Shown here in pieces: positions 9,057 to 25,651 of a stretch of DNA of 64,000 nucleotides. Location: positions 2,971,501 through 3,035,500 of the forward strand of contig NZ_CP013118.1 of assembly GCF_001443605.1 (NCBI RefSeq). The letters run 5' to 3'. The stretch is from Salinivirga cyanobacteriivorans. Lineage in GTDB: Bacteria > Bacteroidota > Bacteroidia > Bacteroidales > Salinivirgaceae. Position 1 is the first letter of the stretch, and each line of letters opens with the position of its first letter. A program made the translations under genes and the position numbers. Below the pieces are notes generated by a model, which saw nothing but the letters and a program-made list of their open reading frames with translations, was not told where the DNA came from and made no database searches.

Positions 9057-9089
9057 TTTTGAAAATATGATTCCCATTAGGTACCTTAG
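9057..9089 (+). promoter_or_regulatory. Putative promoter of the S74 surface-protein operon
   Basis: TTTTG (9057-9061) is followed after 20 bp by TACCTTAG (9082-9089), a 6 of 8 match to TAnnTTTG with the usual spacing. It lies inside the first codons of the longest possible ORF and so supports translation from the ATG at 9106. Confidence 0.35.
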
Positions 9090-9105: not shown

Positions 9106-11568
9106 ATGAAAGTATTAATATTGTTTTTATCCATTGTACTATTAGCTAAGTTTTCTTTATCCCAGAACATTACTTTGTCAGATGATGATAATTATGAAGC
9201 TCACAGTAGTGCAATGGTAGATATTTATTCCAAAACAAAAGGGCTACTGGTTCCCCGGGTTACAAACACAGAAATGAACTCAATTGCAACGCCGGCTAAT
9301 GGTTTAATTGTGTACAACAGCAGTTTTAATAATTATTATTACTGGGATGGGGCAGACTGGAAAATTGTAGCTGTAAGTGAATATTTTCAGTCAAATGGCG
9401 ATACCGTATTCATTACCGGAGATGGAAAAAGATTTGGTATTGGTACACGCTCTCCTATGGGGCGCCTAACCGTGATGGGTGATAGCACTGCTACTAGCGA
9501 CGAACCACTTTTTGAAGTAAAAAACAGCCAGGGTGAGATCATATTTGCTGTGTATGAAAACGAGGTGCAGGTTAATTTTAAAGAAGACTCGTCAAAGGCT
9601 TTAAAAGGCGGATTTGCTGTAGGAGGTTTAACTTCAGGTAAGTCGGAGCCTACCGAATATTTGAGAATTACACCTGACAGTGTGCGCATTTACATCGATG
9701 ATAGTTCTACAAAAGCCCAGAAGGGTGGGTTTGCTGTTGGAGGTCTAACTTCGGGTAAAGCCAATCATAATAAATACTTTTTATTGAACCAGGATAGCAC
9801 AAGAATTTACCATAAAACAGGCCTGAAGGCACAAAAAGGAGGTTTTGCGGTAGGTGGATTGACAGGTGGCAAATCAATTCCTGAAAATTACCTTACCGTG
9901 GAACGAGACAGTACGCGTATTTATGTAAATGAAAATGCTAAGGCACAAAAAGGAGGATTTGCAGTGGGAGGTTTAACCGGCGGTAAAGGTGGAGCCCAGT
10001 TTCTAAGTCTTACACCTGAAAATTATTTTATCGGGCATGAAAGCGGACTAAATACTACAGGAACATACAATGCATTTATCGGTTATCAAAGTGGATATTC
10101 AAATACCTCCGGAAATCAGAACCTCTTTTTTGGTTACCAGGCAGGATATCATAATACGACCGGTAACAATAATACATTTTTAGGTAACCGGAGTGGATAT
10201 TTAAATGAAGAAGGATTTTATAACGTATATATCGGATACAACAGCGGTTATGTAAGTGGAGTAGATGGAATTTATAAAAATTACCGGAACGTATTTATAG
10301 GAGCCCATGCCGGATATGAAGCTTCAGGTGTCTCTTCCGGTGTTTATATCGGGTACGATGCCGGACGGTATAATGTTAATGGTGCCAGAAATACTTTTAT
10401 TGGAGGAGAATCTGGTAAATATAACACACTGGGTTACGATAACACTTTTTTGGGAAATAAATCAGGACATAAAATGATTGATGGCATGGGTAATACTCAT
10501 TTGGGGAGTTATGCCGGATACAGCGATACTGCCGGATTTCGAAATACATTTGTAGGGTCAAGCGCTGCCCGCAGTTTACAGGAGGGCTACCGTAATGTTT
10601 TTGTAGGTGCATGGGCTGGCGAGGATAAAACTTCAGGAAGTTACAATGTTTTACTAGGCTTTGGTGCTGGAAAAACATCGGAGACTTCCGATAATAATAT
10701 TTTCATAGGTACCTATGCAGGTGAAAATACAACCGGAAATAGTAATGTATTTATCGGGCATAATGTAGGTCAGAATATTGATGTGTCGAACACGCTTTTA
10801 ATAGGAAATTCCAGTACCAGTCAGCTGATCTACGGCGAATTTGATAATGAGATTGTGGCGTTAAATGCCAATGTCGGTATTGGAACTAATTCACCTGATA
10901 GCAATGCTAAGCTTGAGGTAACAGGAAATGTTTTTGCATCGGGTGGAGATTTCATTGCCGCTTCAACTAATGGAGTTATAAATGTTGGTGGAGGGGCTAT
11001 GAGCTCTACTGCCAACGTTATTAGTGATGGAACCGTAAATAATGAATACGCTACAGGAGATGAGGATTTATACATTTATGATGACCTGGAGGTGGACGGC
11101 AGCACTTATAAAACAGGAAGCGGAACTTGGATAACCCAATCTGATAGAAGATTGAAAAAAGATATTAGGCCTTACCAGGATGGGTTAAGCAAATTACTAA
11201 AAATAAACCCGGTTTTTTTTCGATACAATGAGCTCGCAAAGAGCAGGAGCGATAAGGAATATGTGGGCATCATAGCCCAGGAAATAAAAGAAATTATGCC
11301 TTATGCCGTAGACCTGACTCCGGTTAATAAGAAGGAAATTGAAGGAACGAATGGTGAAATTTCCAGAACAGAATGGGATGGTCAAACCTATTATACGTTT
11401 GATCCGGCATCATTAACTTTTATGCTTATCAACGCTGTTAAAGAACAGCAGAAAATAATTGAAAAACAGCAGCTCAAATTAAGAGCACTGGAAAACAAAA
11501 GCCGTGATTTTGATAAACTGAAAAATGAATTAGATGCACTGAAGAAGGCAGTTGAGCAGTTGAAATAG
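9106..11568 (+). CDS. Secreted repeat protein with C-terminal Peptidase_S74 chaperone domain, copy 1
   Basis: An 820-residue surface protein. Order: signal peptide (MKVLILFLSIVLLAKFSLSQ), a head ending LIVYNSSFNNYYYWDGADW that is common to many Bacteroidota surface proteins, four copies of KGGFAVGGLT(S/G)GK spaced by about 25 residues, about 15 units of the type FIGYQSGYSNTSGNQN that should stack as a beta-helix or YadA-head-like stalk, then an S74 domain starting SDRRLKKDI near residue 678, and a coiled-coil end. S74 domains trimerise phage tail fibres and related adhesins and then cut themselves off at the Ser-Asp bond; Ser, Asp, Arg and Lys of that motif are all present. The ATG at 9106 is preferred to 9067 because it begins the signal peptide. 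Likely an adhesin or fibre; the target is unknown. Copy 2 starts 44 bp downstream. Confidence 0.85.
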   Translation: MKVLILFLSIVLLAKFSLSQNITLSDDDNYEAHSSAMVDIYSKTKGLLVPRVTNTEMNSIATPANGLIVYNSSFNNYYYWDGADWKIVAVSEYFQSNGDTVFITGDGKRFGIGTRSPMGRLTVMGDSTATSDEPLFEVKNSQGEIIFAVYENEVQVNFKEDSSKALKGGFAVGGLTSGKSEPTEYLRITPDSVRIYIDDSSTKAQKGGFAVGGLTSGKANHNKYFLLNQDSTRIYHKTGLKAQKGGFAVGGLTGGKSIPENYLTVERDSTRIYVNENAKAQKGGFAVGGLTGGKGGAQFLSLTPENYFIGHESGLNTTGTYNAFIGYQSGYSNTSGNQNLFFGYQAGYHNTTGNNNTFLGNRSGYLNEEGFYNVYIGYNSGYVSGVDGIYKNYRNVFIGAHAGYEASGVSSGVYIGYDAGRYNVNGARNTFIGGESGKYNTLGYDNTFLGNKSGHKMIDGMGNTHLGSYAGYSDTAGFRNTFVGSSAARSLQEGYRNVFVGAWAGEDKTSGSYNVLLGFGAGKTSETSDNNIFIGTYAGENTTGNSNVFIGHNVGQNIDVSNTLLIGNSSTSQLIYGEFDNEIVALNANVGIGTNSPDSNAKLEVTGNVFASGGDFIAASTNGVINVGGGAMSSTANVISDGTVNNEYATGDEDLYIYDDLEVDGSTYKTGSGTWITQSDRRLKKDIRPYQDGLSKLLKINPVFFRYNELAKSRSDKEYVGIIAQEIKEIMPYAVDLTPVNKKEIEGTNGEISRTEWDGQTYYTFDPASLTFMLINAVKEQQKIIEKQQLKLRALENKSRDFDKLKNELDALKKAVEQLK
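9598..10008 (+). repeat. KGGFAVGGLT repeats in copy 1 (four units)
   Basis: Four in-frame repeats coding for KGGFAVGGLT(S/G)GK, each followed by a spacer ending in SxRIY. Copies 2 and 3 carry the equivalent set at about 12118-12515 and 15180-15577, making twelve in all. The decapeptide core is invariant in every unit, while the spacers vary. Confidence 0.9.
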
Positions 11569-11612
11569 TTGCTTTTATTATTCCTGAAACCTATTTATTA
11601 AAAAATTTTGTC

Positions 11613-14600
11613 ATGAAAACAAATTTGATACTAATATTAATTCTGATCATCGTTGAGTTGTTTTTGTTTACTAACTTTTCACAAGCTCAAAATACAACTA
11701 TAACCGATGAGCAAACATACAATGCACATAATAGTGCTGTTTTAGATGTTTATTCTACCAACAAAGGGTTGCTTATACCCCGGTTGACCAATACACAGAT
11801 GAACAATATCACGACGCCCGCTGCCGGATTATTGATATACAATACCGATGATGATGCCTATTACTTTTATTCAGGTTCGGCGTGGCTGCCTGTAAGCGGA
11901 GGGCAGCTTTTTCAAAATATAGGAGATTCGGTATTTTACCTTTCCGGGGATAATACCAAAATGGGAATAGGAACCTCCACACCCATGAGTCGGCTTTCTG
12001 TACAGGGTTCTTCCAGCTCTCCAGATGATCCGCTATTCGATGTTAAAAACAGCAAAGGAGATGTAATATTTGCAGTCTATGAAGATGAAGTACGCGTAAA
12101 CTTCGTTGAAGATAGCGCTAAAGCCCAAAAAGGAGGCTTTGCTGTAGGTGGACTAACCTCAGGGAAAGCTGACCCTACAGACTATATGCGGATTACTCCG
12201 GATAGTGTACGTTTCTATATTGACGACAGCTCCACAAAAGCCCAAAAAGGTGGCTTTGCCGTAGGTGGGCTTACCTCGGGTAAAGCAGTTGCAAACAAAT
12301 ATTTTATTCTGAATTCCGACAGTGCACGTATTTATCATAAAACAGGCGCTAAAGCCCAAAAAGGCGGTTTTGCGGTAGGTGGATTAACAGGTGGCAAATC
12401 GGTTCCTGAAAACTACCTTACAGTGGAACGCGATAGCTCACGTATTTACGTCAATAACTCTACAAAAGGGCTTAAAGGAGGCTTCGCCGTTGGAGGTCTT
12501 ACTTCTGGCAAAGCCGGTTCTGTAAGGTTTTTAAATCTTACTCCTGATAATTATTTTATTGGAGATAGTGCAGGGTTAAAAAACACAACTGGTATTTATA
12601 ACCTGTTTCTGGGCTTTCGAAGTGGGTATGCAAACACAACAGGTTCCAATAATGTATTTATTGGTAATGCAACTGGTTTTAATAGTGATAGCGGGCAGTA
12701 TAATGTATTTTTAGGTAACGAAGCCGGGTTTAATGTTACAGCTGGTTCCGATAATGTGCTTTTAGGATATCAGGCAGGCTATAATGTCACAACTGCTGGC
12801 AATAATATTAGCATTGGAAGCGAGGCTGGAAAGATCAATACTAATAATAGCGATAATATCTTTCTTGGCAGGCAGGCTGGATTCTATCACACAGAAGATG
12901 TAAATAACAGTATTGGCACCTATACAAACAATATTTATATCGGTTATCAGGCCGGCTATGGCGATCCTGCTGGTGAAAAAGGTGTTAGTAATGTTTTTAT
13001 AGGTAATCAATCCGGATATAGCAATACTACAGGTCTGAATAATATTATTCTGGGTAATAAGGCCGGATTTGGCAATACTACCGGATCAAATAATGTAATG
13101 TTGGGTGATCTTGCAGGGATTAATAATACAAGTGGCCTTAATAACGTATTTCTTGGCAACAATTCGGGTTACAATAATGAAAGTGGTTCTGCAAATGTAT
13201 TTATTGGTAACAATGCAGGGTTCGACCTGAACGGACAAACCCAAAACGTGTTTATTGGCGCCAATGCAGGCTCCGATGCCAATGGCGGAAATAATAATGT
13301 ATTTATGGGTGTGCAGGCAGGTCAGCACCATTATTCGGGCGATAATAATGTTTATCTTGGCAATAATGCCGGGCTTGGGAACAACACATTTACCGGTACA
13401 TCTCAAAGAAATGTTATTTTGGGAGATAATGCAGGAAAAAATGTAAGAAATGCCACAGATAATGTAATTATTGGTCACGATGCCGGTTTTGGTGATGGAA
13501 CTGGAATTTCCGGAGGGGCGAATGTTGTGATTGGCGAGTCGGCAGGATATAACCTGACCAATGGTAGTACCAACGTTTTTATGGGTAATGAAGCCGGATA
13601 CAATAATGAAGGCGGATACATCAATAATTTTATAGGGTACAGGGCTGGTTACTCCAATATTGATGGTGTAAATAACGTATTTATAGGTAACGAAGCCGGT
13701 TATGCATCCCAATCTGAGAATGGCAATCTTATGATTGGAAATTTTGCAGGACACGATCATAATGATGGATGGGGCAATAATTATTTCGGAACCTATACCG
13801 GTCGCTATATGACTCAGGGCATAAATAACGTCTTTTTAGGCAACAATACAGGAATGAGTCTGGGAACTGGAAACAACAACGTTATACTTGGATCTTATGC
13901 AGGAACTACCAACAATGAAGATGGAGTATACACCGGAAGCTATAATGTCGTGCTCGGCTCCAATTCAGGAAAATTGATAAACGGCGATAATAATGTGTTT
14001 ATAGGTAATGGTGCCGGAAGTCTTGAAACCGGTTCTGATAAACTTTATATTGAGAGTGGGGGTACAACATTGGACGAAACTAATTCTCTTTTGTATGGAG
14101 ATTTTAATAATGATATGCTACGCATTAATGCCAATATGGGTATTAATTACAATGGTTATTCTGGTTATGGCCTTGTTGTGGATATGCCCGATGGCCAAAC
14201 GGAAACCTATTCAGTTTATGTCTTTGGTAGTATCTACTCAAGTGGAACATATGAAGGTTCTGACCCTAGATATAAAAAGAATATTGAGCCACTTGCAACA
14301 CCACTTGATAAGATATTAAAACTAACGCCTGTACAATATCAGATGGATAATCAAAAGTTTGAGGGCAATAATTTTCCATCTGGACAACAGGTTGGCTTAA
14401 TAGCACAGGATGTGGAGACGCTGTTTCCTGAGTTGGTTAAAAGCGATAAAGAGGGATACAAGGCAATTAATTATGCGAAAATTACTCCATACCTGATTAA
14501 GGCTTTGCAAGAACAGCAGCAGCTTATAAAAGAAATGAAAACTGAATTAAAGGCTCAGGATGAGGAGAATGAAATTTTAAAAGAAAAAATAGAGAAAATT

Positions 14601-14624
14601 TACGAAATGCTCAATAAGCAGTAA
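11613..14624 (+). CDS. Secreted repeat protein with C-terminal Peptidase_S74 chaperone domain, copy 2
   Basis: The longest of the three paralogues at 1003 residues. It has a signal peptide (to about 26, ending SQAQ), the LLIPRLTNTQMNN head, four KGGFAVGGLT repeats, and about 28 units of the form NVFIGNNAGF-NTTGSN, counted by eye. The S74 domain begins SDPRYKKNIEP near residue 882, continues VGLIAQDVETLFPELV, and ends in a coiled coil (QEQQQLIKEMKTELKAQDEENEIL). The Ser-Asp and Lys of the self-cleavage motif are kept. DNA from 11751 to 12528 is about 95% identical to copy 3 with no indels. The length difference between copies comes from the number of short repeats. It has no T9SS sorting domain, so its export route past the outer membrane is unclear. 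Confidence 0.85.
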   Translation: MKTNLILILILIIVELFLFTNFSQAQNTTITDEQTYNAHNSAVLDVYSTNKGLLIPRLTNTQMNNITTPAAGLLIYNTDDDAYYFYSGSAWLPVSGGQLFQNIGDSVFYLSGDNTKMGIGTSTPMSRLSVQGSSSSPDDPLFDVKNSKGDVIFAVYEDEVRVNFVEDSAKAQKGGFAVGGLTSGKADPTDYMRITPDSVRFYIDDSSTKAQKGGFAVGGLTSGKAVANKYFILNSDSARIYHKTGAKAQKGGFAVGGLTGGKSVPENYLTVERDSSRIYVNNSTKGLKGGFAVGGLTSGKAGSVRFLNLTPDNYFIGDSAGLKNTTGIYNLFLGFRSGYANTTGSNNVFIGNATGFNSDSGQYNVFLGNEAGFNVTAGSDNVLLGYQAGYNVTTAGNNISIGSEAGKINTNNSDNIFLGRQAGFYHTEDVNNSIGTYTNNIYIGYQAGYGDPAGEKGVSNVFIGNQSGYSNTTGLNNIILGNKAGFGNTTGSNNVMLGDLAGINNTSGLNNVFLGNNSGYNNESGSANVFIGNNAGFDLNGQTQNVFIGANAGSDANGGNNNVFMGVQAGQHHYSGDNNVYLGNNAGLGNNTFTGTSQRNVILGDNAGKNVRNATDNVIIGHDAGFGDGTGISGGANVVIGESAGYNLTNGSTNVFMGNEAGYNNEGGYINNFIGYRAGYSNIDGVNNVFIGNEAGYASQSENGNLMIGNFAGHDHNDGWGNNYFGTYTGRYMTQGINNVFLGNNTGMSLGTGNNNVILGSYAGTTNNEDGVYTGSYNVVLGSNSGKLINGDNNVFIGNGAGSLETGSDKLYIESGGTTLDETNSLLYGDFNNDMLRINANMGINYNGYSGYGLVVDMPDGQTETYSVYVFGSIYSSGTYEGSDPRYKKNIEPLATPLDKILKLTPVQYQMDNQKFEGNNFPSGQQVGLIAQDVETLFPELVKSDKEGYKAINYAKITPYLIKALQEQQQLIKEMKTELKAQDEENEILKEKIEKIYEMLNKQ
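11751..12528 (+). repeat. Long direct repeat shared with copy 3 (partner 14813-15590)
   Basis: The segment aligns with 14813-15590 at a constant offset of 3062 bp without gaps. By eye I count about 38 mismatches in 778 bp (about 95% identity), many at third codon positions. Identity falls sharply straight after 12528/15590. This points to a recent duplication or gene-conversion tract covering the shared head and the KGGFAVGGLT repeats. Confidence 0.85.
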
Positions 14625-14668
14625 ACGCATATAGTTAATACTAGATTTAAACCCAAAAACAATTAAAA

Positions 14669-17356
14669 ATGAAGCACTTTACAATATTTACACTGAAGTT
14701 TTTATTCCTGACTATGTTTTTAGGAGTAATTATTTCCAATGTTTTTGGTCAAAATACTACTATCACAGACAATGAAAGTTATACAGCTGATAATAGTGCA
14801 GTGCTGGACGTATATTCTACCAACAAAGGTTTGCTTATACCCCGGTTGACCAATACCCAGATGAACAATATCACTACGCCGGCTGCCGGATTATTGATAT
14901 ACAATATCAATGACCATGCCTATTACTTCTATTCCGGATCAGCCTGGTTGCCTGTAAGCGGAGGGCAGCTTTTTCAAAATATAGGAGATTCGGTATTTTA
15001 CCTTTCCGGTGATAAAACCAAAATGGGAATAGGAACCTCCACACCCATGAGTCGGCTTTCTGTACAGGGTTCTTCCAGCTCTCCAGATGATCCGCTATTC
15101 GATGTTAAAAACAGCAAGGGCGATGTAATATTTGCCGTTTATGAAAATGAAGTACGCGTAAACTTCGTTGAAGATAGCGCTAAAGCCCAAAAAGGAGGCT
15201 TTGCTGTAGGTGGACTAACCTCAGGGAAAGCTGACCCTACAGACTATATGCGGATAACTCCCGATAGTGTACGTTTCTATATTGACGACAGCTCCACAAA
15301 AGCACTAAAGGGCGGCTTTGCCGTAGGTGGCCTTACTTCGGGTAAAGCAGTTGCGAACAAATATTTTATTCTGAATTCCGACAGCGCACGCATTTATCAT
15401 AAAACAGGCGCTAAAGCGCAAAAAGGTGGTTTTGCGGTGGGTGGATTAACAGGTGGCAAATCAGTTCCTGAAAACTACCTCACAGTGGAACGCGATAGTT
15501 CACGTATTTACGTCAATAACTCTACAAAAGGGCTTAAAGGAGGCTTCGCCGTTGGAGGTCTTACTTCTGGCAAAGCCGGTTCTGTAAGGTTCCTAAGCCT
15601 CACCCCTGACAACTACTTTATAGGTGACAGCGCAGGATTAAATACCACAACTGGTATTTATAATTCCTTCATTGGCCATCAGGCTGGATTGGAAAATATA
15701 GATGGAAGCAAAAATATTTTCATCGGTTACCGCGCAGGGCTAAATAATATTAATGGACAGGAAAATATTTTTATGGGTTTCAAAGCTGGTAGCACTAGTC
15801 AATTTGGAAACTGGAACACCTTTCTGGGTTTTGAAGCCGGCTTGAATAATACCGGAAGCGATAATACATTTATAGGTTACCAGGCCGGACGTGACCATAC
15901 CTCCCAGGGCGGAAACGTGTATATTGGCAGTAAGGCTGGTGCTGAAGCTACACAGGGCGAGCAGAATGTTTATATAGGAGAATCTACCGGACTTAAAACA
16001 ACCACCGGTAAAGCCAACGTTTTTATTGGTTTTGAATGTGGTAAGTTAAACTCTACAGGAACAAAAAATGTATTTATGGGCTACCAAAGTGGTGTGTCTA
16101 ATACCGATGGTAGCAGCAACGTTTTCATAGGCGATAGTGTTGGGGTATCAAATCAAGGTGGCGACAAAAATATTTTTATAGGGAACTATGCAGGGCAGGA
16201 AAACACTTATGGCAATAGTAATATTTACATCGGTTACCAGGCGGGAGCACTTGAAACAGGTAGTCAAAACCTCTTCATTGGCAACTATGCCGGTATGAAT
16301 AATACTACAGGTCAGAATCTGTTTCTTGGCGAATATGCTGGAACAGAAAATACTAGCGGCACAAGAAATACATTTGTAGGTTTCTTTGCCGGGAGCGAAA
16401 ACCAAACAGGTCAGCTTAATTCATATTTTGGGCAGTTTGCAGGGAGAAATAATCTTGGCGATCGCAATACCATGATCGGTTATTGGGCCGGAGGTTTAAA
16501 TACTACAGGAGAACACAATACATTTTTAGGATGGCGTGCTGGACAAAATACAGGTACAGCGGCATACAATGTACATCTCGGTTATCAGGCAGGTGAAGCA
16601 TCATCTGGTAATTACAATGTTTATGTCGGTTATCAGGCAGGTATGAGTAATACAGGTTCGAATAAACTTATTATAGGGAACAATTCCACAAGCAAACTAA
16701 TCTATGGCGATTTTTCAGCAGAAACTATAACATTTAATGGAAATGTTGGAATAAACAACGATAACCCTGCCTATAATCTGGATATAAGTGATGCGAATGC
16801 AACAATTTCATTGAATGGATATAGAATAGGAAGGCTGACTGGAGGAACAGGTATAGATAATGATATCGTCCCATATGGCGGAAGTAGTCAGGCATTTGAT
16901 TTGGGAAATAATACATCCACAGAGCATTGGGATGACGTTGTAGCTTTGGAATATGTAACTTATACAAAAGGTCAGCAACTCAAATCTGCCGAAAAGATAA
17001 ATATTGATATTAATTTGCTTGAAGAGCTTGAGCCTGTTCATTATCAGTCGGATGATAGTAAAGGAGGTAAGTTGAAATATGGACTTACTATTGAATCCCT
17101 ACTTAAAGTAGCGCCAGCGGCTGTAGTTACTACTGATACTGATTTTGATCCGGAACGAAATATATATGTAACTACTAAAACAGAAAATCCGGGAATTAAT
17201 TATGATGCAATGATACCTGTTGTTGTGAGCTTAATGCAGCAACAGCAGAAAACTATTCAACAGCAAGCTGAACAGATAAAAACAAATTCTCAGCAAATTG
17301 AAGAGTTGAAAAAAGCGAATAAGGAGCTGAGAGATCTTATTGAAAGCCTGAAATAA
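14669..17356 (+). CDS. Secreted repeat protein, copy 3, with degenerate S74-like C-terminus
   Basis: An 895-residue paralogue with signal peptide (ending NVFGQ), the same head, four KGGFAVGGLT repeats and about 21 GYQAG-type units. Its C-terminal region still looks like an S74 domain (KINIDINLLEELEPVHYQ, then KYGLTIESLLKVAPAAVV and a final coiled coil QQQQKTIQQQAEQIKTNSQQIEELKKANKEL). However, the SDxRxK self-cleavage motif is replaced by KSAEKIN. It may therefore fold and trimerise but should not cut itself. It starts 44 bp after copy 2 and is followed after 8 bp by the 1585-residue T9SS protein, so all four are probably on one message. Confidence 0.83.
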   Translation: MKHFTIFTLKFLFLTMFLGVIISNVFGQNTTITDNESYTADNSAVLDVYSTNKGLLIPRLTNTQMNNITTPAAGLLIYNINDHAYYFYSGSAWLPVSGGQLFQNIGDSVFYLSGDKTKMGIGTSTPMSRLSVQGSSSSPDDPLFDVKNSKGDVIFAVYENEVRVNFVEDSAKAQKGGFAVGGLTSGKADPTDYMRITPDSVRFYIDDSSTKALKGGFAVGGLTSGKAVANKYFILNSDSARIYHKTGAKAQKGGFAVGGLTGGKSVPENYLTVERDSSRIYVNNSTKGLKGGFAVGGLTSGKAGSVRFLSLTPDNYFIGDSAGLNTTTGIYNSFIGHQAGLENIDGSKNIFIGYRAGLNNINGQENIFMGFKAGSTSQFGNWNTFLGFEAGLNNTGSDNTFIGYQAGRDHTSQGGNVYIGSKAGAEATQGEQNVYIGESTGLKTTTGKANVFIGFECGKLNSTGTKNVFMGYQSGVSNTDGSSNVFIGDSVGVSNQGGDKNIFIGNYAGQENTYGNSNIYIGYQAGALETGSQNLFIGNYAGMNNTTGQNLFLGEYAGTENTSGTRNTFVGFFAGSENQTGQLNSYFGQFAGRNNLGDRNTMIGYWAGGLNTTGEHNTFLGWRAGQNTGTAAYNVHLGYQAGEASSGNYNVYVGYQAGMSNTGSNKLIIGNNSTSKLIYGDFSAETITFNGNVGINNDNPAYNLDISDANATISLNGYRIGRLTGGTGIDNDIVPYGGSSQAFDLGNNTSTEHWDDVVALEYVTYTKGQQLKSAEKINIDINLLEELEPVHYQSDDSKGGKLKYGLTIESLLKVAPAAVVTTDTDFDPERNIYVTTKTENPGINYDAMIPVVVSLMQQQQKTIQQQAEQIKTNSQQIEELKKANKELRDLIESLK
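14813..15590 (+). repeat. Long direct repeat shared with copy 2 (partner 11751-12528)
   Basis: Second copy of the 778 bp direct repeat. Recombination between the two would delete about 3.06 kb and fuse copy 2's head to copy 3's stalk. Confidence 0.85.
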
Positions 17357-17364
17357 TAGTACTT

Positions 17365-20300
17365 ATGAAGAATATATTTATAGTTTTCTTAATGTGTTTT
17401 GCACTTGCGGTTTATGGTCAGAAAGGGATTATAAACAATGGTGCCAGAATTGTTGTAGAAAATGGAGCTTATATCAAGGTTCAGGGTGATAATACAACAG
17501 GATATACCAATAAATCCTTTGGTTCCAGTCATGGTAGAATTGAGTTAGACGGTGAAATTCAAATAAATGGATTTTTTAATAATAATGCTTCAGCAAATAC
17601 AGTCTTTGTAAATAACGACGGAACAGGGAATGTTATATTTCTAGGTTCATCAACTCAGTCAATTGGTGGTTCGAAACCAATTGATTTTGAGGGGCTGAAG
17701 GTCAATGGAGCAAATGTTAATCTGAATACTGATATTTCAGTCGCCGGAGTTTTAGATTTTACACAAGGGTTGTTGTTTGTCAATAATTATTTGTTGGAGT
17801 TAACCACATCAGCTTCAATTGGGGGAACTCCCGGCACATCTTCAATGATTGTACCCGGAAATAGTGGTACAGTACGCAAATATTTTAGTGCACCACAATC
17901 TTTTACTTACCCCATAGGAGACAACTCTGCATCTGGAGTTTATTTGCCTGTTGGCATTAACTTCTCCTCAGGTAGTTTTACCGGGGCCTTTGTCGATTTA
18001 CAAACCATAAACAGCAAACATCAGGAGAATAGCAATACCACAGATTATCTCAATCGTTATTGGACGCTCTCTTCTGCAGGAATTACGGGTATGCTGGCTG
18101 ATCTTTCTTTGACCTATGCCACAGCTGACATTGCAGGCACAGAGTCTAACCTCATGACGCTGCAGTACGATGGAAATTTTTGGAATATACATGATGCTGT
18201 CAATACATCAACCAATCAGTTAACAGCGACTGTTAGTGAGTTTGGCGATTTTACTGGTGGCGGAGCCGATGAGGTCTCTCCACATCTCTATTGGAGTGTA
18301 GAGTCGATTATTCAGGAGAATTTTGAAAACGGCCATATTATTAAAGCCTCCGTGGAGAATGAAGCGTTTGCTTCGACCCTGGATGCCGGGCAGTGGAATA
18401 TCATCAATTTACCTGCTGGAGTTGGTATAGGTAGCTTAAATCGCACATACGACGATACGGTTGAAGTTACATTATCGGGAAACCGACTTGATGACTTCGA
18501 TTCGGATAGAACACTCAGTTTAACTGTTAACCAGAGTCAATTTGTGCATACCGCTTCAGGTAGCCTCACTGCCGAAAACACATTATTATTAAATGCCGAT
18601 AATGACCCCGAGAATCTCGCAATGACCGATGATGGAAGCATAACAGAGGGTAGCGAAGATGGTGAGATAATTACAGTAACATTATCAGGGGGTACTTTTG
18701 CCCAAACCCTTAACACAACCAGTTGGGTGGGCAATAATATGCCGGCAGGAGTTGCTTTGGGGACCATTACAAGGCAATCAGCTACCCAGGTAATAATAGA
18801 ATTAAGTGGAAATACCACATCCGACTATGATACTGATATCACAAACTTTGAATTGACTGTTCCATCAACTGATGTAAATGAATATGCAGGAAGTGATTTT
18901 CTGCTTACTACAGGGGTTGTATTTAAGGCGGTTGACGAAGATTTAATTATCAGTATGACCGATGGAGGTAGCGGAATAGCTGAGAGCGCGGAGAATGGAC
19001 ATCAAATAACAGTCTCAATCGATGAGCGCACCTTTACCGATCCGCTTACCCTGTCAGAATGGACCATGTATAACTTACCTTCGGGCGTTACGATTGGAAG
19101 TGTTAATAGACAAAACGATACCGCAGTTTATATTTTCCTTTCAGGTAACCGGAACGTTGATTATGATACGGATATAACCAATGTTCAGTTAACTATAGCG
19201 AGTAGTCAGATCGGTGGCGTATCTAATCCTGTTACCATAACAAGTGGTGTCACGTTTAATGCGGACAACGACCCTGAAAGTATTGCAATTGCTACTGACC
19301 CGGATGGTATTGATGAAGCTGCAGAAGACGGTGAAGTAATTACTGCCACAATTACCGGAGGTACTTTTGTCAATCCACCTCAAATTTCAAACTGGACCCT
19401 TAGCAATTTGCCTGAAGGAGTTTCTGTAGGCACATTATCATGGAATACCATGTACGAAGTTGGTATTACCCTCTCCGGAAACCGGCAAACTGATTTCGAT
19501 TCACATATAACCGATATTGAATTGACAGTAGCTGCTGCTGATGTAGACGATAATTCTTCCGGTATTTTGGCGAGTAACTCAATTACAATTAATGCCGAGA
19601 ACGATGCCGAAAACCTTACACTTTCAGGAGGACCTTTTACTGAGGGGAATGAAGATGGCGCAGTTATAACAGCTACACTTGATGGAGGAACCATCTCAAG
19701 TTCATTTACAGCAGGCGATTTAATTATGACCAATTTGCCACCCGGCGTTTCACTCGGAAGTGCAGTGCGGCAAAATATGTACGAAATCAACATAGTGCTT
19801 GAAGGCAATGCGACTTCAGATTATGATACAGATATTACAAATACCACAGCCACTATAAGTTCAGCAGTAGTTGATGAAACCACTTCAGATGTCTCTGGTA
19901 CTGGAATTACGTTCAATGCAACTATGGAACCTGCTGAACTGGTTTTAACTGATAATGGAGACCTTTATGAATCTGAAGAGGATGGTAAATCATTATTTAT
20001 TACCGTAAGACAAGATACATTAGTATCATCAATTAGTCCGGCAGGTTTTGTGTTCAGTAATTTCCCTGAAGGCGTTACTGCCGGAAATATCAACCGTTTA
20101 AATGATACAACGGTAGAGGTGGTGCTATCAGGCTTTCGTACTCAGGATTATGATACCGATATAATTAATGCAGGAGTAACGGTAGATGCCTTACAGTTTC
20201 AATACAGCAGTAGCTCCCTTAGCGCATCATCAGGCTGGACCTTTATTGCTACAGATGATAATGAAAGCATAGCATTCAGTGCTAACTTAATAACAGAAGG

Positions 20301-22122
20301 TGCCGAAGATGGCGCCCAGGTAGATATTGTAATGTCCGGAGGTACTTTTGCTGATGGTTTAAACCCGGGATCATGGAGTTTTACAGGACTGCCTGCCGGG
20401 GTTAGTGTTGGAAGTGTCAATAAACTGGCACCCACGGAAGCAAGGGTTGTCCTTTCAGGAAATACAACTACCGATTACGATAATGATATTATTGTCGATG
20501 AATTAATTATTGCAGGATCTCAGATTGATGATTATAATGACGCGGATATTGCCGCATCAGGTTCTGTCACATTCGAAGCAATAGTTGAAACACAGGATCT
20601 TATTTTAAGCAGCCTGACATCATTGGCCGAAGATAATCTCAATGATGCAATAGTAGGCCTTAAATTGGAAGGGGCAACTTACACAACACCAATTAATACA
20701 TCTAATTTCGTTTTCAATAACCAGCCTCCGGGCTTAACCCTTGGCGATGTAGTGCTGGAATCTACCGATTCTGCATCTGTTATTTTGGCCTATGATGGCA
20801 CTGACTTCGATGTAGGTTACCCGGAATTTAATATAACACTCTTAGCAGCCGGAAGTAGTATAGGAGAACAGGTCAACTCTAACACGCTTGCTATTGATGC
20901 TATAGTTGAGCCCGGAGAACTCCAGGCTTCCCATGCCGGATTAGATGAGGAAAATCTTGACGGCGCTACAATTGATCTGGCTTTAGTAGATGATTCATTT
21001 GTCGATAATGCACTTGATATTGCCAATTTTGGGTTGATTAATGCGCCTGCCGGATGTGAGATTTTTAGTGTAAATTACCTTTCATCAACTACAGCATCAT
21101 TAACTATAGCCTTCGATGGAACTGACTTTGATACAGACTTTACCAACTTTGCCATTAATATGGCGGGGGCAGAAGTGGTATCTAATAATGCTTATAGCTC
21201 CAATGCACTGCTTATTTCAGCAACCAATGACGCTGAACAATTAACCATACTCAATACAGGAACAATAGCAGAAGGAACAGAAGATGGCCATGTATTTGAA
21301 GTAGAATTAAGTGGAGGTACGTTTAATCCGAACCTAAATCCTGACGCCTGGAGCTTCACCTGGTTGCCCGATGGCACAAGCGTTAGCGATGTAATATATT
21401 TGGGTGAGTCAAACGCTGAAATCTTAATCAATGGCAACAGAATTATTGATTATGATATGGACCAGGTCGTGAACATTGAGGCTGCTCCATCTGAATATAA
21501 TGATGCAGAAGGTAATGCATTAATTACAGATAACACAATTACTTTTGAATCTTACAATGAGCAACTCAATGCATTGCATGATACAATTTACGAAAGCAAC
21601 CTCGATAATGTAGAGCTGTCATTTGAAATTATGGACGACTGGATTAACACAACTGGTTTTTCAATTGAAGATATTAGTCTTCAATCAGCACCCGAAGGCT
21701 TTACAATTGCAAGTTTGATTGAAACAGATTCTGCGCATTTTACTGTAAGCTTTGCTTATGACGGTATGGGTATAATGCAGGACAATCCATTTAGTTTAGA
21801 ACTGGCAGATAGTGTTTTAAATGGAATTGAAGCGCTTGTTTCCCAGCAAATTGTAATTGCAAATGATGTGGGGGTTACCGGCATTGAGGGAGATGTTGAA
21901 TTATATGTTTCAGGTAACGAAATATACCTTAAACAACATCGATTTGCAAGGAAGGGAAGTTTAATCATATATGAGTTAAATGGTCGAAAACTTGAAGAAT
22001 ATAAAGTAGAAGCCAGGAGTACAAACCACTTTCTTCCTGTTTTGAAGGATGGAATGTACTTAATTCAGTTTTTAACCGATGATGGAAAATTATATCAAAC
22101 CAAAGGTGTTGTTAAGAACTAA
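17365..22122 (+). CDS. Large T9SS-secreted repeat protein
   Basis: A 1585-residue protein with a signal peptide (MKNIFIVFLMCFALAVYGQ), a region of about 300 residues resembling the start of many Bacteroidota surface proteins (strand-rich, IGGSKPIDFEGLKVNGANV), eleven tandem repeats of about 105 residues, and a T9SS type A sorting domain at the end (from about ELYVSGNEIYL to KGVVKN, with ELNGRKLEEYKV). The repeats share an E-x(2-3)-EDG start, a (S/T)NLPxGVxxGS(V/I)xR middle and a DYDTDI end. Repeats 8, 9 and 11 are more divergent. The acidic DYDTDI loops may bind calcium, by analogy only. It begins 8 bp after copy 3 and is followed by a terminator, so it closes the operon. It is probably anchored on the cell surface; its role is unknown. 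Confidence 0.85.
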   Translation: MKNIFIVFLMCFALAVYGQKGIINNGARIVVENGAYIKVQGDNTTGYTNKSFGSSHGRIELDGEIQINGFFNNNASANTVFVNNDGTGNVIFLGSSTQSIGGSKPIDFEGLKVNGANVNLNTDISVAGVLDFTQGLLFVNNYLLELTTSASIGGTPGTSSMIVPGNSGTVRKYFSAPQSFTYPIGDNSASGVYLPVGINFSSGSFTGAFVDLQTINSKHQENSNTTDYLNRYWTLSSAGITGMLADLSLTYATADIAGTESNLMTLQYDGNFWNIHDAVNTSTNQLTATVSEFGDFTGGGADEVSPHLYWSVESIIQENFENGHIIKASVENEAFASTLDAGQWNIINLPAGVGIGSLNRTYDDTVEVTLSGNRLDDFDSDRTLSLTVNQSQFVHTASGSLTAENTLLLNADNDPENLAMTDDGSITEGSEDGEIITVTLSGGTFAQTLNTTSWVGNNMPAGVALGTITRQSATQVIIELSGNTTSDYDTDITNFELTVPSTDVNEYAGSDFLLTTGVVFKAVDEDLIISMTDGGSGIAESAENGHQITVSIDERTFTDPLTLSEWTMYNLPSGVTIGSVNRQNDTAVYIFLSGNRNVDYDTDITNVQLTIASSQIGGVSNPVTITSGVTFNADNDPESIAIATDPDGIDEAAEDGEVITATITGGTFVNPPQISNWTLSNLPEGVSVGTLSWNTMYEVGITLSGNRQTDFDSHITDIELTVAAADVDDNSSGILASNSITINAENDAENLTLSGGPFTEGNEDGAVITATLDGGTISSSFTAGDLIMTNLPPGVSLGSAVRQNMYEINIVLEGNATSDYDTDITNTTATISSAVVDETTSDVSGTGITFNATMEPAELVLTDNGDLYESEEDGKSLFITVRQDTLVSSISPAGFVFSNFPEGVTAGNINRLNDTTVEVVLSGFRTQDYDTDIINAGVTVDALQFQYSSSSLSASSGWTFIATDDNESIAFSANLITEGAEDGAQVDIVMSGGTFADGLNPGSWSFTGLPAGVSVGSVNKLAPTEARVVLSGNTTTDYDNDIIVDELIIAGSQIDDYNDADIAASGSVTFEAIVETQDLILSSLTSLAEDNLNDAIVGLKLEGATYTTPINTSNFVFNNQPPGLTLGDVVLESTDSASVILAYDGTDFDVGYPEFNITLLAAGSSIGEQVNSNTLAIDAIVEPGELQASHAGLDEENLDGATIDLALVDDSFVDNALDIANFGLINAPAGCEIFSVNYLSSTTASLTIAFDGTDFDTDFTNFAINMAGAEVVSNNAYSSNALLISATNDAEQLTILNTGTIAEGTEDGHVFEVELSGGTFNPNLNPDAWSFTWLPDGTSVSDVIYLGESNAEILINGNRIIDYDMDQVVNIEAAPSEYNDAEGNALITDNTITFESYNEQLNALHDTIYESNLDNVELSFEIMDDWINTTGFSIEDISLQSAPEGFTIASLIETDSAHFTVSFAYDGMGIMQDNPFSLELADSVLNGIEALVSQQIVIANDVGVTGIEGDVELYVSGNEIYLKQHRFARKGSLIIYELNGRKLEEYKVEARSTNHFLPVLKDGMYLIQFLTDDGKLYQTKGVVKN
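18295..21850 (+). repeat. Eleven tandem protein repeats of about 105 residues
   Basis: The repeats are visible in translation as cycles of EDGxxI...SGGTF...NLPAGVxxGS...LSGNxxxDYDTDIxxxxLTV. The first begins with VESIIQENFENGH and the last with LNALHDTIYESN. The DNA is diverged between units, so this is an old expansion rather than a recent slippage product. Confidence 0.75.
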
Positions 22123-22138
22123 TAGTTATGAAATTACG

Positions 22139-22170
22139 AAAAAGGAGGCAATTTTATTTGTCTCCTTTTT
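22139..22170 (+). terminator. Rho-independent terminator of the surface-protein operon
   Basis: A 13 bp stem (22139-22151 with 22158-22170, one G-U pair) with a 6-base loop, followed by T residues. It lies 17 bp after the stop of the 1585-residue gene and separates the operon from the sensor-phosphatase gene. Confidence 0.8.
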
Positions 22171-22279
22171 TTATTGGTTGTATTTTTAATTGGATTTTGC
22201 TAAAAAAGTGGTTTTAAATGTTTTTTTGTAAACAAAAGATGAATTGCTTCTTTTATAAAATTTAAGTACCCTAAGAATA

Positions 22280-25200
22280 ATGCAACGATTAATATATATT
22301 TTCATTTTCACATTGGTTACTTATGGCAGTTATGCACAGGTAAACCAGTACGGATATCCTTTCTATAAATACTATGGAATGACCGATTATGGTGGAACCG
22401 AACAAAATTGGGCCCTTGTAAAAGATCACCGTGGCATTGTATACGTGGGTAATAATGACGATGGAATTCTGGAGTATGATGGCAAACACTGGAGGCAAAT
22501 TTCAATTAATAACAATTCAATTGTAAGGTCTTTAGCCGTTGGTGATGATGGTGTTGTTTATGTAGGTGCAGTGGATGAATTCGGTAAGCTCATACCCGAT
22601 GATAAAGGTGTGTTGCACTATCAATCATTACTTTCTCTGGTCGATTCATCTCAAGGTGAGAATTTTAAAGACATTTGGAAAACATATGTTTTGGCAGACA
22701 CAGTTTATTTTGCATCATTTAACCGGCTTTTTAAATACTTCGATAACAAAATAGAGGTAATTGATTTACCACAATATACCAATTTCACCCATTTAATTGA
22801 TGATCAGATTTATGTAGGTCAGTTTTACGATGGACTGTTGAAATATGATCCAAAAGCAAAAAATACAGAAGATACAACATTTGTTACAATTGATAGCCGG
22901 GTCATCAATAACAAAAATGCTTTTGTGCTTGAAAAACTCAGTGATAGTAAAGTTTTAATTGGTACACTCGATTCCGGGTTATTTACCATGACACTGCCTG
23001 AAAATAGAGTAACAAGGGCCCCATATAAAGAAATTAACCAGTATTTAAAAGAAAACCAACTTTATAATGCTGATTTAACCACTCAATATAAAGCTTTTGC
23101 AACGCTGCAAGGCGGAATAATGGTGGCAAAAGATTTTGAGCCCTACGAAGTATACGATCAAAAAACAGGGTTGCCGAGCGATGAAACAGTTTCTTCGGTA
23201 TATTCAGATAGCGGTATTAATACACCATTATGGGCTACCCTGAACAATGGTATTATCAGAGTTGATTGGCATTTACCTTTCAGGGTAATGGACCAAAGAA
23301 ACGGTTTGAGTGGCCATTTGCTCGATATCATACGTTTCAACGATGAGCTTTATGTAGGTACCAGTTCTGGATTATTCAAGCTAACCTATGATGGTTTTAA
23401 CCCCAAATTTGAAAAAATTATCGATCATTCGGTTTGGGATCTACAACTCTATACATACCCTTATAACTCTAAAAAAGTGCTTTTGGTAGGCACTATTAGG
23501 GGTCTCCATGAAATTACAGAAAATGGTTACAATGGTATAATAGAAAGAAGAGTAAAAGGAATTAAGCAAGAACGAAACTATTATATTTATAAAATAGCAA
23601 TACCAAACCCCGATAAACCAAATGAATTAGCAATAGGAACAAACGATAATTTTATAATTCTAAAAAATGTGGGTAATTCCTGGACGCGTGAATTAAAAAA
23701 AGATGTTGATTCAAAGGTAAGGGAAATCGGTTATTACGACGGTGCTTACTGGCTAGGAACCAGTTTTAAAGGAATTGTAAAATACACAAGGGAAGATGAT
23801 AAGATTAAGCGCTATACAGATGAGGAAGAGCTTGGATCAATTACACAGAATAGAATTGTAATTGATAATGACAACTTATATGCACTTAACCCAGCTGGCG
23901 TATATAAATACGATAAAACGACAGATAGCTTTAAACTAGATAACGAACTCGGTAAATTGGCTGCAATTACCAATATGGGTGTTTCAGCATTAAAATGGGA
24001 TGAAGACCACTACTATTTCAGTATGATAAGTGACGAAAAACAAAGAATTCGCCGAATGAGGAAAGACGGAACATGGTCAACTTATGACACTGCTATTTTC
24101 AACAGGTTACCCAATGTGCAGTACGATGCTATTTATCCGGAAAAAGATGTGGTTTGGTTTGGTTGTTCAAAAGGTTTATTTGCCTATGTGAAAGACATGG
24201 AAAAAGGGTTTGCAAATAAATCATTCAATACCTTGATAAGAACGGTTGTGCTTGGTAAAGACTCCTTAATTTATGGAGGCTATACAAGCAAACTAAAAAC
24301 TGAAAAAGCCGGTCAGGAAAAAAAAGAACCTATTTCATTTCGGTATAGCAGCAATGATATAGAGTTTACATTTTCGGCTCCTTACTATGAAGAAGAGGAT
24401 AAGCTATTATACTCTTATAAACTTGAAGGGTACGACGATTCCTGGTCGCCATGGGATACAAAAACCGTTGAAGATTATAATAATCTGCCCTCTGGCGAAT
24501 ATACTTTCAAGGTAAGGGCACGCAATATATACGGCTTCGAAAGTGAACCCGACGAAATGGATATATCCCTTGGGGTTGATCGCAGTACTTTTAGCTTCAG
24601 TATTTTACCACCATGGTATCAGACTGTTTGGGCCATTATCGGATATCTTATCGTATTGGTTTTTATTATTCGCGTAATTGTTCAATGGCGTACGCGTAAA
24701 TTAAAGCAAGAAAAAGAGCGGCTTGAAGAAATTGTCAGGGAACGAACTGCAGAAATAATGGAGAAGAAAGAAGAAATTGAAAAGCAGCGTGACGAAATTG
24801 CCGAAAAGAACCAAAGCATTACCGATAGTATCCACTATGCCAGCAGGATACAGCAAGCTTTACTACCCTCCGAAAAAATGCTCTCAAAAGCAGTGCCCGA
24901 ACATTTTGTGTTATTCAAGCCACGTGATATTGTCAGTGGAGACTATTACTGGATGACACAGATTAAGAATAAAACAATTCTTGTGGCTGCAGACTGTACC
25001 GGCCACGGGGTTCCGGGGGCTTTTATGAGTATGCTGGGCATGTCTTTCTTCAATGAAATTGTCAATAAAAATGTTGTGACAGACGCCGGAGAAATCCTTA
25101 ACCAGTTAAGAGCACATGTAATTGAAGCCCTAAAACAAGAGGGTGACGATGCCAAAGCGAAAGATGGAATGGACCTGGCACTTTACGTGATAGATAAAGA

Positions 25201-25651
25201 TGAAAATATGGTATATTATGCCGGAGCCAATAATCCGCTGTATATCATCAGAAAGCAAACAGAAGAAGAGAAAAAAGCCATAGCAGAGGACGACAGCTCA
25301 AAGCTTCCAAAGCGAGCGCTTTACGACGATACCTTTATCTTAGAGGAAATTAAAGCTGACAAAATGCCTATCGGTATCCATATTAAGAAAAAACCATTTG
25401 ATACGAAAGAGATCCCTATAAGGGAAGGAATGAAGCTCTATACTTTCTCCGATGGCTATGTCGACCAGTTTGGTGGTCCACGGAGAAGAAAATTTATGTC
25501 CAAATCATTCAAAAAACTACTCTTCAATATTCACCAGAAACCTATGCAGGAGCAGAAACAAATATTAGACGACCGAATCGAATCCTGGATAGAAGAAGGA
25601 GATGAAATTCAGGTTGACGATATTGTTGTGCTCGGGGTTACAGTCAATTAA
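22280..25651 (+). CDS. Reg_prop/Y_Y_Y sensor with cytoplasmic SpoIIE-type PP2C phosphatase
   Basis: A 1123-residue one-protein signalling system. Order: signal peptide (ending GSYAQ), a periplasmic beta-propeller region of two-component-regulator type (about 20-680; repeats such as DHRGIVYVGNNDDGILEYDG), a Y_Y_Y immunoglobulin-like domain (about 684-770; YKLEGYDDSWSPW, LPSGEYTFKVRARN), a membrane helix (about 776-800), a coiled coil (KQEKERLEEIVRERTAEIMEKKEEIEKQRDEIAEK), and a SpoIIE phosphatase (about 850-1123) with VSGDYYW, AADCTGHGVPGAFMS and FSDGYVDQFGG. The metal-binding Asp residues (GDYYW, AADCTGHG, FSDG) are present, so it should be an active Ser/Thr phosphatase, typically acting on an anti-anti-sigma protein. 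No such partner is in the window. It lies just downstream of the surface-protein operon but behind a terminator. Confidence 0.9.
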   Translation: MQRLIYIFIFTLVTYGSYAQVNQYGYPFYKYYGMTDYGGTEQNWALVKDHRGIVYVGNNDDGILEYDGKHWRQISINNNSIVRSLAVGDDGVVYVGAVDEFGKLIPDDKGVLHYQSLLSLVDSSQGENFKDIWKTYVLADTVYFASFNRLFKYFDNKIEVIDLPQYTNFTHLIDDQIYVGQFYDGLLKYDPKAKNTEDTTFVTIDSRVINNKNAFVLEKLSDSKVLIGTLDSGLFTMTLPENRVTRAPYKEINQYLKENQLYNADLTTQYKAFATLQGGIMVAKDFEPYEVYDQKTGLPSDETVSSVYSDSGINTPLWATLNNGIIRVDWHLPFRVMDQRNGLSGHLLDIIRFNDELYVGTSSGLFKLTYDGFNPKFEKIIDHSVWDLQLYTYPYNSKKVLLVGTIRGLHEITENGYNGIIERRVKGIKQERNYYIYKIAIPNPDKPNELAIGTNDNFIILKNVGNSWTRELKKDVDSKVREIGYYDGAYWLGTSFKGIVKYTREDDKIKRYTDEEELGSITQNRIVIDNDNLYALNPAGVYKYDKTTDSFKLDNELGKLAAITNMGVSALKWDEDHYYFSMISDEKQRIRRMRKDGTWSTYDTAIFNRLPNVQYDAIYPEKDVVWFGCSKGLFAYVKDMEKGFANKSFNTLIRTVVLGKDSLIYGGYTSKLKTEKAGQEKKEPISFRYSSNDIEFTFSAPYYEEEDKLLYSYKLEGYDDSWSPWDTKTVEDYNNLPSGEYTFKVRARNIYGFESEPDEMDISLGVDRSTFSFSILPPWYQTVWAIIGYLIVLVFIIRVIVQWRTRKLKQEKERLEEIVRERTAEIMEKKEEIEKQRDEIAEKNQSITDSIHYASRIQQALLPSEKMLSKAVPEHFVLFKPRDIVSGDYYWMTQIKNKTILVAADCTGHGVPGAFMSMLGMSFFNEIVNKNVVTDAGEILNQLRAHVIEALKQEGDDAKAKDGMDLALYVIDKDENMVYYAGANNPLYIIRKQTEEEKKAIAEDDSSKLPKRALYDDTFILEEIKADKMPIGIHIKKKPFDTKEIPIREGMKLYTFSDGYVDQFGGPRRRKFMSKSFKKLLFNIHQKPMQEQKQILDDRIESWIEEGDEIQVDDIVVLGVTVN

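Follow-up and report, generated by a model that had tools for sequence, protein, structure and literature searches.

A fibre gene cluster of Salinivirga cyanobacteriivorans linked to a putative type IX secretion partner matched to the fibre base and to a SiaA-like sensor phosphatase

In the window analysed here, a stretch of 64,000 nucleotides from the genome of Salinivirga cyanobacteriivorans, three genes for fibre-like proteins (P1, P2 and P3) are followed by a gene for a large protein of the type IX secretion system (T9SS) type (P4) and a gene for a sensor phosphatase (P5), which raises the question of what these genes build together and in what way fibres of this kind may be attached to the cell. 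The respective open reading frames (ORFs), all on the forward strand, extend over 9106..11568 (P1, with an additional in-frame ATG upstream at 9067), 11613..14624 (P2), 14669..17356 (P3), 17365..22122 (P4) and 22280..25651 (P5). The ORF list and a terminator scan reproduced the arrangement described in an earlier note on this DNA, in which P1 to P4 are co-directional, spaced by 44, 44 and 8 bp, and closed by a terminator. This probable intrinsic terminator, located 3' of P4 at 22138..22171 on the forward strand, consists of a stem of 14 pairs and a T-run, and its stem is the longest among the 11 terminator-like sites of the region; the gap from P4 to P5 measures 157 bp. Since both the terminator-like sites (11 versus 13.8 expected) and the promoter-like sites (63 versus 62.5 expected) of the region were at chance level, no transcript limits were drawn from these scans. 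No Rfam family was found within the window, and a literature search revealed no paper with the P1-P5 gene order; a study of tandem spreading genes in Flavobacterium collinsii proved unrelated.

P1 is composed of a signal peptide, a base domain with the motif SAxVDIYSxTKGLLVPR, GGFAVGG repeats, NVFIGxxAG-type repeats, an S74 domain and a coiled-coil-like C-terminal tail. All three fibre proteins have hydrophobic, signal-peptide-like stretches at their N-termini and carry the same base, termed type 1 (T1) and assigned with the T1 model for P1. The earlier note had counted three S74 paralogues, which held for two of them: P1 and P2 matched Peptidase_S74 (PF13884) with 53.4 and 54.1 bits, respectively (cut-off 22), and possess the catalytic motif SDxxxK in the form of SDRRLK and SDPRYK. 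P3, on the other hand, gave no match to PF13884 in the Pfam profile search; its C-terminus can be aligned to S74, but it reads SAEKIN at the position of SDxxxK, meaning that the domain is degenerate and the catalytic motif lost. The P3 orthologue of the sister species G002, which is 65% identical in this part, shows the same loss (SGEKMN). P2 combines a longer NVFIG-type repeat region with an S74 part of the catalytic type, which matched the distal subunit of a phage long tail fibre in the PDB (6f45, E=9e-7). The Pfam search detected no YadA-type membrane-anchor barrel in P1-P3, and a T9SS sorting domain was present in 0/83 fibre ORFs with an intact 3' end. An AlphaFold2 monomer model of the fibre base, produced with ten T1 homologues, was poor (pLDDT 50.5, pTM 0.31), as expected if an intertwined trimer, which the base probably forms, is treated as a single chain, and was left out of the fold search.

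The N-terminus of P4 is formed by a conserved module of about 300 aa, referred to as P4n; the protein continues with 11 repeat motifs at intervals of about 110 aa and ends in a weak type A sorting domain (TIGR04183, 19.4 bits, below the cut-off of 23). A member of the P4 family in genome G070 scored 48.7 bits with PF18962 (cut-off 27), and the proteins of the P4n family, homologues of which were found in other genomes, combine sorting domains with a variable middle part of up to 35 SprB repeats. The T9SS translocon SprA is encoded in the same genome as P4 (SprA_N, 583 bits). The sequence of P4 had no match in the PDB. For P4n, a fair AlphaFold2 model was obtained (pLDDT 80.8), the comparison of which to PDB folds gave no significant match (best E=0.15). 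Ankyrin ZU5 domains ranked first among the shape matches of some probability (E 0.16-0.25), which we note as no more than a weak lead.

Proteins with a T9SS signal are often encoded beside fibres of this kind, and the type of the partner tracks the N-terminal domain of the fibre. T1 fibres were paired with P4n in the window, in the genomes G001, G070, G040, G048 (locus L097), G075 and G002 (the latter by its fibre core) and, as further cases, in G052, G017 and a second locus of G075. Fibres with a type 2 (T2) base, which is of the FNYQA type, were paired in about 22 operons with a small SWTxGE protein of about 165 aa, and the sorting domain of these small proteins is of type A. No cross-pairs, i.e. 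T1 with the small protein or T2 with P4n, were seen in the operons compared (Fisher p=6e-7). Of the small-protein loci in other genomes of the order, 15/25 were flanked by a fibre-like gene of the same orientation. In an independent, phylum-wide sample, a T2 neighbour was present at 18/19 small-protein genes versus 0/9 control loci picked by their sorting domain only (p=1.4e-6), and in the genome of the window all three small-protein genes (3/3) adjoin T2 genes. P4n-like modules occur also in giant proteins without fibre neighbours. At many single T2 fibre loci a sorting-domain partner is absent next door, and thus these fibres may do without a partner or have its gene at another site. YadA-head-type repeats are contained in two T2 paralogues from the genome of the window, and the repeats of P1-P3 are related to these in style.

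P5 consists of a signal peptide, a propeller-type ectodomain, a Y_Y_Y domain, one transmembrane helix, a signalling coil and a SpoIIE/PP2C output domain. Its previous description as a Reg_prop/Y_Y_Y/SpoIIE protein was confirmed for SpoIIE (60.9 bits, cut-off 25) and Y_Y_Y (46.9 bits, cut-off 26.6), but the Reg_prop score of 17.2 bits was under the cut-off of 20.4. The ectodomain resembles that of the Bacteroides hybrid sensors 3v9f and 4a2l, and the output domain comes without the kinase and regulator of hybrid two-component sensors. Instead, it is closest to SiaA, the PP2C domain of which it matched (6k4e, E=1e-32) with alignment of the GDYY, DCTGHG, SDG and DD motifs, and the catalytic residues, comprising the metal-binding Asp and the Gly motifs, are conserved. 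As P5 reached 179 bits with the SiaA equivalog model NF038263, for which the cut-off is 700, we refer to it as SiaA-like and not as SiaA. A profile search of the genome yielded six SiaB and 13 SiaC genes, all above cut-off. No siaB or siaC gene is located near P5 in the window; in other genomes, such genes adjoin relatives of P5. These results support the idea of a partner-switching control and narrow it to the SiaABC type.

The order of fibre gene(s), T9SS protein and propeller/Y_Y_Y sensor recurred in other members of the genus and also in several further families of the same order, and the locus can therefore be regarded as a conserved unit. With P4n as T9SS protein, this order was found in G002 (L039), G048 (L097) and G040 (L077), in G070 (L062) after at least eight fibre genes, and in G001 divided between two contigs. 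In a tree of P5, fibre or P4-type neighbours were present in 15/28 of the P5 clade versus 0/21 of its sister clade (Fisher p=2.6e-5), about half of the P5 clade having no fibre neighbour within the stretch examined. Fibre-linked sensors with other outputs, a histidine kinase in G040 and a nucleotide cyclase in G032, have kept the propeller/Y_Y_Y part.

We consider it slightly better than an even chance, with a rough probability of 0.55, that the locus encodes alternative trimeric, adhesive fibres of constant base and swapped tips, for which a protein exported by the T9SS serves as docking partner and to which a switch of the SiaABC type is coupled. P1-P3 share a base made of the T1 domain and the GGFAVGG repeats, and vary in shaft length and tip. 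The S74 chaperones of P1 and P2 are predicted to cleave themselves once the trimer has folded, and P3 would carry an S74-like cap that is predicted to be non-cleaving. P4 would be exported by the T9SS, and its P4n module may dock the fibre base and thereby anchor the fibres or aid their export. The periplasmic propeller/Y_Y_Y part of P5 would sense a ligand and the SiaA-like PP2C would signal, most likely by dephosphorylating at least one SiaC protein that is phosphorylated by SiaB kinases. In this way, P5 might sense the state of the surface or control expression, as suggested in the earlier note.

The proposal that P1-P3 form one fibre of mixed subunits gained nothing from our analysis. Along 11763..12512 on the forward strand, the DNA of P2 shows 91-99% identity to that of P3 (sliding identity and repeat families), with an exact match of 109 bp, and the identity then drops to about 55% at the start of the NVFIG repeats. 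The near-identical bases, together with the tandem genes and short gaps, would be compatible with a heteromeric fibre, but the shafts of P1-P3 are unlike one another in length and repeat content, and the S74-type fibres described to date are homotrimers (PMC10769870), which makes such a fibre improbable. Since P2 and P3 share a near-identical base and diverge abruptly at the shaft, alternative homotrimers with swapped tips fit the sequences better. As matches to phage tail fibres were obtained for the S74 and repeat parts, the locus could also be what is left of a prophage, a tailocin or a contractile injection system. Among the phage records listed, however, the matches start at residue 294 of P2 or later and none lies in the base domain, and the reading as a phage remnant was dropped since these matches do not reach the fibre base. 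It is rendered highly improbable also by the signal-peptide-like stretches at the N-termini, by the flanking genes of the cluster, which are by sequence asparaginase-, BadF-type- and DnaK-like, and by the recurrence of paralogous fibre clusters across families with no phage genes seen alongside.

Fibres and T9SS proteins could also be merely co-located and co-regulated adhesins without contact, the fibres crossing the outer membrane in another way. Surface roles are expected for both, and many fibre loci are without an adjoining sorting-domain gene. To our knowledge, Bdellovibrio has no T9SS. As the mosaic adhesive trimer (MAT) fibres of this bacterium are surface-located (PMC10769870), the T9SS cannot be the sole export route for such fibres. 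Nevertheless, co-regulation alone predicts neither the matching of T1 with P4n and of T2 with the small protein in the absence of cross-pairs nor the phylum-wide contrast of 18/19 versus 0/9, and we regard mere co-location as rather unlikely. With regard to P5, it is conceivable, albeit at clearly less than even odds, that it is a chance neighbour of the fibre operon and, as a hybrid-two-component-like sensor of nutrients or glycans, controls another target. The terminator and the 157-bp gap separate it from P4, its ectodomain is like that of the Bacteroides sensors, its family is large (at least 14-18 matches per genome of the genus), and G003, G004 and G005 of the same family have P5-clade genes without adjoining fibres, a SiaC gene being located at a distance of a few genes in the first two. 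Chance adjacency is made less likely by the enrichment of fibre neighbours in one clade and by the retention of the propeller/Y_Y_Y part in fibre-linked sensors despite their kinase or cyclase output. Thus, we favour trimeric fibres docked on P4 and coupled to a SiaABC-type switch via P5.

Beyond this locus, we tentatively propose a two-partner type IX display across the Bacteroidota, in which phage-like trimeric fibres without a T9SS signal would arrive at the surface, or be retained there, by docking with their base on dedicated, type-matched T9SS cargo, either of the P4n type or of the small SWTxGE type; in the operon of the window, a SiaA-like phosphatase would report on the layer. The matching of partner type and fibre-base type in relatives points to a possible mode of attachment of such fibres to the surface, and owing to the type-matched, phylum-wide linkage to the T9SS, a candidate partner can be named for either type of fibre. 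If true, this would widen the scope of the T9SS from the export of single proteins to the display of fibres made of signal-less proteins, give a possible function to small T9SS proteins of unknown role and connect the fibres with signalling of the SiaABC type in bacteria other than Pseudomonas.

Among known systems, the MAT fibres of Bdellovibrio bacteriovorus (Caulton et al. 2024, PMC10769870), the surface attachment or anchor of which is stated there as unknown, resemble the fibres of the locus in that they combine a signal peptide and a constant domain at the N-terminus with a shaft and tip that vary, have C-termini with or without S74, and possess the SDxxxK motif. A constant base with a variable tip is found here in P2 and P3, and S74 and degenerate S74 domains occur in one operon. 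In contrast to MAT fibres, the fibres described here have genes for T9SS-signal proteins and for a sensor phosphatase as neighbours, and P1-P3 did not match the MAT N-domain model NF053851, to which the T2 paralogues of the genome showed a weak similarity (34.4 bits at most, the cut-off being 60). S74/endosialidase chaperone tail fibres (PF13884; 6f45, 8jov, 3gud; also MyRF, 7dc3) share with P1 and P2 the C-terminal S74 domain with its catalytic motif, and the repeat region is phage-like as well, whereas the fibres of the locus are cellular, with a signal peptide and a base domain that is absent from the phage matches listed, and P3 is without the catalytic motif. The YadA-head-type repeats in two T2 paralogues, and the related style of P1-P3, are reminiscent of YadA-type (type Vc) autotransporters; however, no membrane-anchor domain was found, and P1-P3 end in S74 or S74-like domains plus a coiled-coil-like tail.

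Linkage and type-matching of a sorting-domain protein and its partner are known from type B T9SS cargo and PorP/SprF shuttles, where the PorP/SprF partner determines the place of the cargo on the surface (PMC12618676). In the present case, a fibre that lacks a sorting domain takes the place of the linked partner, and the sorting domain of the small proteins is of type A. The threonine-phosphorylation switch SiaABC of Pseudomonas aeruginosa (PMC7647112, PMC8457831) has a transmembrane PP2C, with which the output domain of P5 aligns (6k4e), and SiaB kinases and SiaC are encoded in the genome, but P5 differs in its propeller/Y_Y_Y ectodomain and has no adjoining siaB or siaC. Bacteroides hybrid two-component sensors (3v9f, 4a2l) have a histidine kinase and a DNA-binding regulator in place of the PP2C output of P5, and share with it the propeller/Y_Y_Y ectodomain and the adjacency to presumed target genes.

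On a closed 4.81-Mb chromosome, the five open reading frames P1 to P5 (9106-11568, 11613-14624, 14669-17356, 17365-22122 and 22280-25651, all on the forward strand) are separated by gaps of 44, 44, 8 and 157 bp, in agreement with an earlier note on this DNA. The top-ranking terminator-like site of the region is a stem at 22138-22171, in a scan that found such sites there no more often than expected by chance. Three S74 paralogues had also been proposed in that note; Peptidase_S74 was detected in the fibre proteins P1 and P2, where it may be cleaved, and not in P3. The C-terminus of P3 can be aligned to S74 proteins and carries SAEKIN at the position of the SDxxxK motif, and since its orthologue in the relative genome G002 has SGEKMN there (65% identity in that part), the loss of the motif is common to two species.

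The N-terminus of P1-P3 is hydrophobic and resembles a signal peptide. It leads into a base domain of type T1 (NSAVLDVYSTNKGLLIPR...), after which come GGFAVGG repeats, a stretch of NVFIGxxAG-type repeats that varies between the proteins, and an S74 or S74-like part with a coiled-coil-like tail. The DNA of P2 and P3 is 91-99% identical across the greater part of the base and drops to about 55% identity after it, a pattern consistent with a constant base that has been homogenised repeatedly while shafts and tips diverged. Among the tblastn matches listed, those to phage records begin at residue 294 of P2 at the earliest, and by this comparison the shaft and S74 part are phage-like, with the base absent from these matches. 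In a profile search, the S74 part matched 7dc3, which is MyRF, as well as 6f45, 8jov and 3gud, which are the phage S16 long tail fibre, a tail fibre and a neck appendage protein, respectively.

Using P3, P4 and P5 as queries in 80 relatives and examining the surrounding DNA in stretches no longer than 20 kb, we found the order of fibre(s), protein with the N-terminal module of P4 (P4n) and sensor in both other species of the genus, in one of them across contigs, and outside the family in G048/L097, G070 and G040. Genes of the P5 clade with fibres directly before or after them occur in G029 and G002 (C201 and C118), and such adjacency was also seen in Bacteroidales GL140_5 (L093), Bacteroidetes GWB2_32_14 (L108) and Perlabentimonas gracilis (L099). 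In a tree of 49 sensors, fibre or P4n neighbours were present for 15 of the 28 P5-clade members compared to 0 of 21 outside (Fisher p=2.6e-5). The linkage label requires 8 changes on this tree versus 13 in shuffles; it is clustered, with several gains or losses. In two sensors linked to fibres, the propeller/Y_Y_Y ectodomain is kept without SpoIIE, the output being a histidine kinase ATPase (L077, G040) or a nucleotide cyclase domain (L078, G032).

The PDB entry nearest to the output domain of P5 is 6k4e (E=1e-32), titled 'putative serine phosphatase', which is the PP2C domain of SiaA. The metal-binding motifs are aligned, based on the residues listed for SiaA PP2C (PMC7647112). Because P5 scored 179 bits against the SiaA equivalog model, far under the 700-bit cut-off, we grade it as SiaA-like. 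Its ectodomain, which would sense a ligand, matches the Bacteroides hybrid sensors 3v9f and 4a2l. The genome encodes 13 SiaC proteins, which may include the target of P5, and six SiaB proteins. SiaB or SiaC genes lie near P5 relatives at 13 of about 120 loci, directly adjoining in L118 and L155 and nearby in L167. Within the P5 clade such loci are L045, L051 and L106: here the sensor lacks adjacent fibres and SiaC is encoded a few genes from it, an arrangement useful for identifying the partner in signalling.

No T9SS sorting domain was detected by our profile in 83 fibre ORFs with intact 3' end (76 distinct), and fibre operons often contain one sorting-domain protein whose kind matches the fibre base. 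The partner of T1 fibres is of the P4n type in the window, G001, G070, G040, G048/L097, G075 (two loci), G052 and G017, and G002 was counted as such a pairing by its fibre core. Fibres with the other base, T2 (about 22 operons), are paired with a small protein of about 165 residues, usually encoded directly upstream, that combines an SWTxGE...LTQGFQ motif with a sorting domain (34.6-51.5 bits in five tested; cut-off 23). Cross-pairs of T1 with the small protein or T2 with P4n were absent among the operons examined. Since the initial small proteins were discovered beside fibres, their sampling calls for caution; two later samples were more independent. In other genomes of the order, 25 small-protein loci were inspected, and 15 of them had a fibre-like neighbour on the same strand. 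Phylum-wide, 18 of 19 loci matched by the whole small protein were accompanied by a same-strand T2 gene no more than about 1.5 kb away (weak scores of 23-42 bits in four cases), compared to 0 of 9 loci matched by the sorting domain only (p=1.4e-6). All three small-protein genes of the window's genome (at 769780, 3974657 and 1644154) lie beside T2 genes. As our profiles for T1, T2, P4n, small protein and sorting domain were built from few sequences each and the loci were mostly best hits, the exact fractions would shift in a full census. The genome also encodes SprA.

The second fibre cluster of this genome (753906-774304) contains at least six paralogues with a T2 base (FNYQAVVRD...), three with S74, two with YadA-head repeats and others with different C-termini. 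At 770291-774304, the first 187 aa of a T2 fibre precede a transposase-like ORF of 388 aa, after which comes the rest of a fibre, bearing GGFAVGG and YadA-head repeats; this is probably a single gene split by an insertion element. Two T2 fibres (757355-759919 and 764045-766972) have non-S74 C-terminal domains. Since one such domain (FIIAGGEPGMKISWQVTG) is shared with a T1 fibre of G002 (L175:3471-5912), it suggests that tips were swapped between the two types.

In the P4 family, the first 300 residues (P4n) are conserved and the middle is variable, with 11 spaced repeat motifs in P4, almost nothing in the P4n proteins of about 400 aa in G048/L097, and 35 SprB repeats plus a sorting domain well over cut-off in G070. 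AlphaFold2 predicts P4n as beta-rich (pLDDT 80.8), and the model had no significant fold match in the PDB; weak, non-significant shape matches of this model (17365-18330) included ankyrin ZU5 and the NLRP1 FIIND region (E >0.1). In G075 (C460, L245:4029-6784), a T1 fibre and a P4n gene are followed by an ORF with a PorP/SprF-like start, possibly a link to type B T9SS shuttles.

The best reading is that P1-P3 would form alternative homotrimeric fibres sharing a constant base with exchanged tips, that the type-matched T9SS cargo would hold or carry them, and that a SiaA-like sensor is encoded downstream of both. The order of the genes, their domains, the recurrence of the locus and the matching of types are shown directly by the sequences; fibre-partner contact, the route of export, cleavage at S74, the ligand of the sensor and its SiaC target are inferred. 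The individual parts are of already-known kinds; for the conserved operon with its matching of fibre base and T9SS partner, we found no description in the open-licence literature searched. With their constant base and S74 or S74-like ends, P1-P3 resemble the Bdellovibrio MAT fibres. These are reported to combine an invariant N-terminal domain with tips that may or may not be S74, to carry the SDxxxK motif and to have a surface partner that is unknown (PMC10769870). Since P1-P3 had no match to the NCBIfam model of the MAT N-domain, they appear MAT-like in function and are placed outside that family; T2 bases of this genome reached at most 34.4 bits (cut-off 60). The pairing also has a studied parallel in type B T9SS cargo, which is genetically linked to PorP/SprF shuttles as its dedicated surface partner (PMC12618676).
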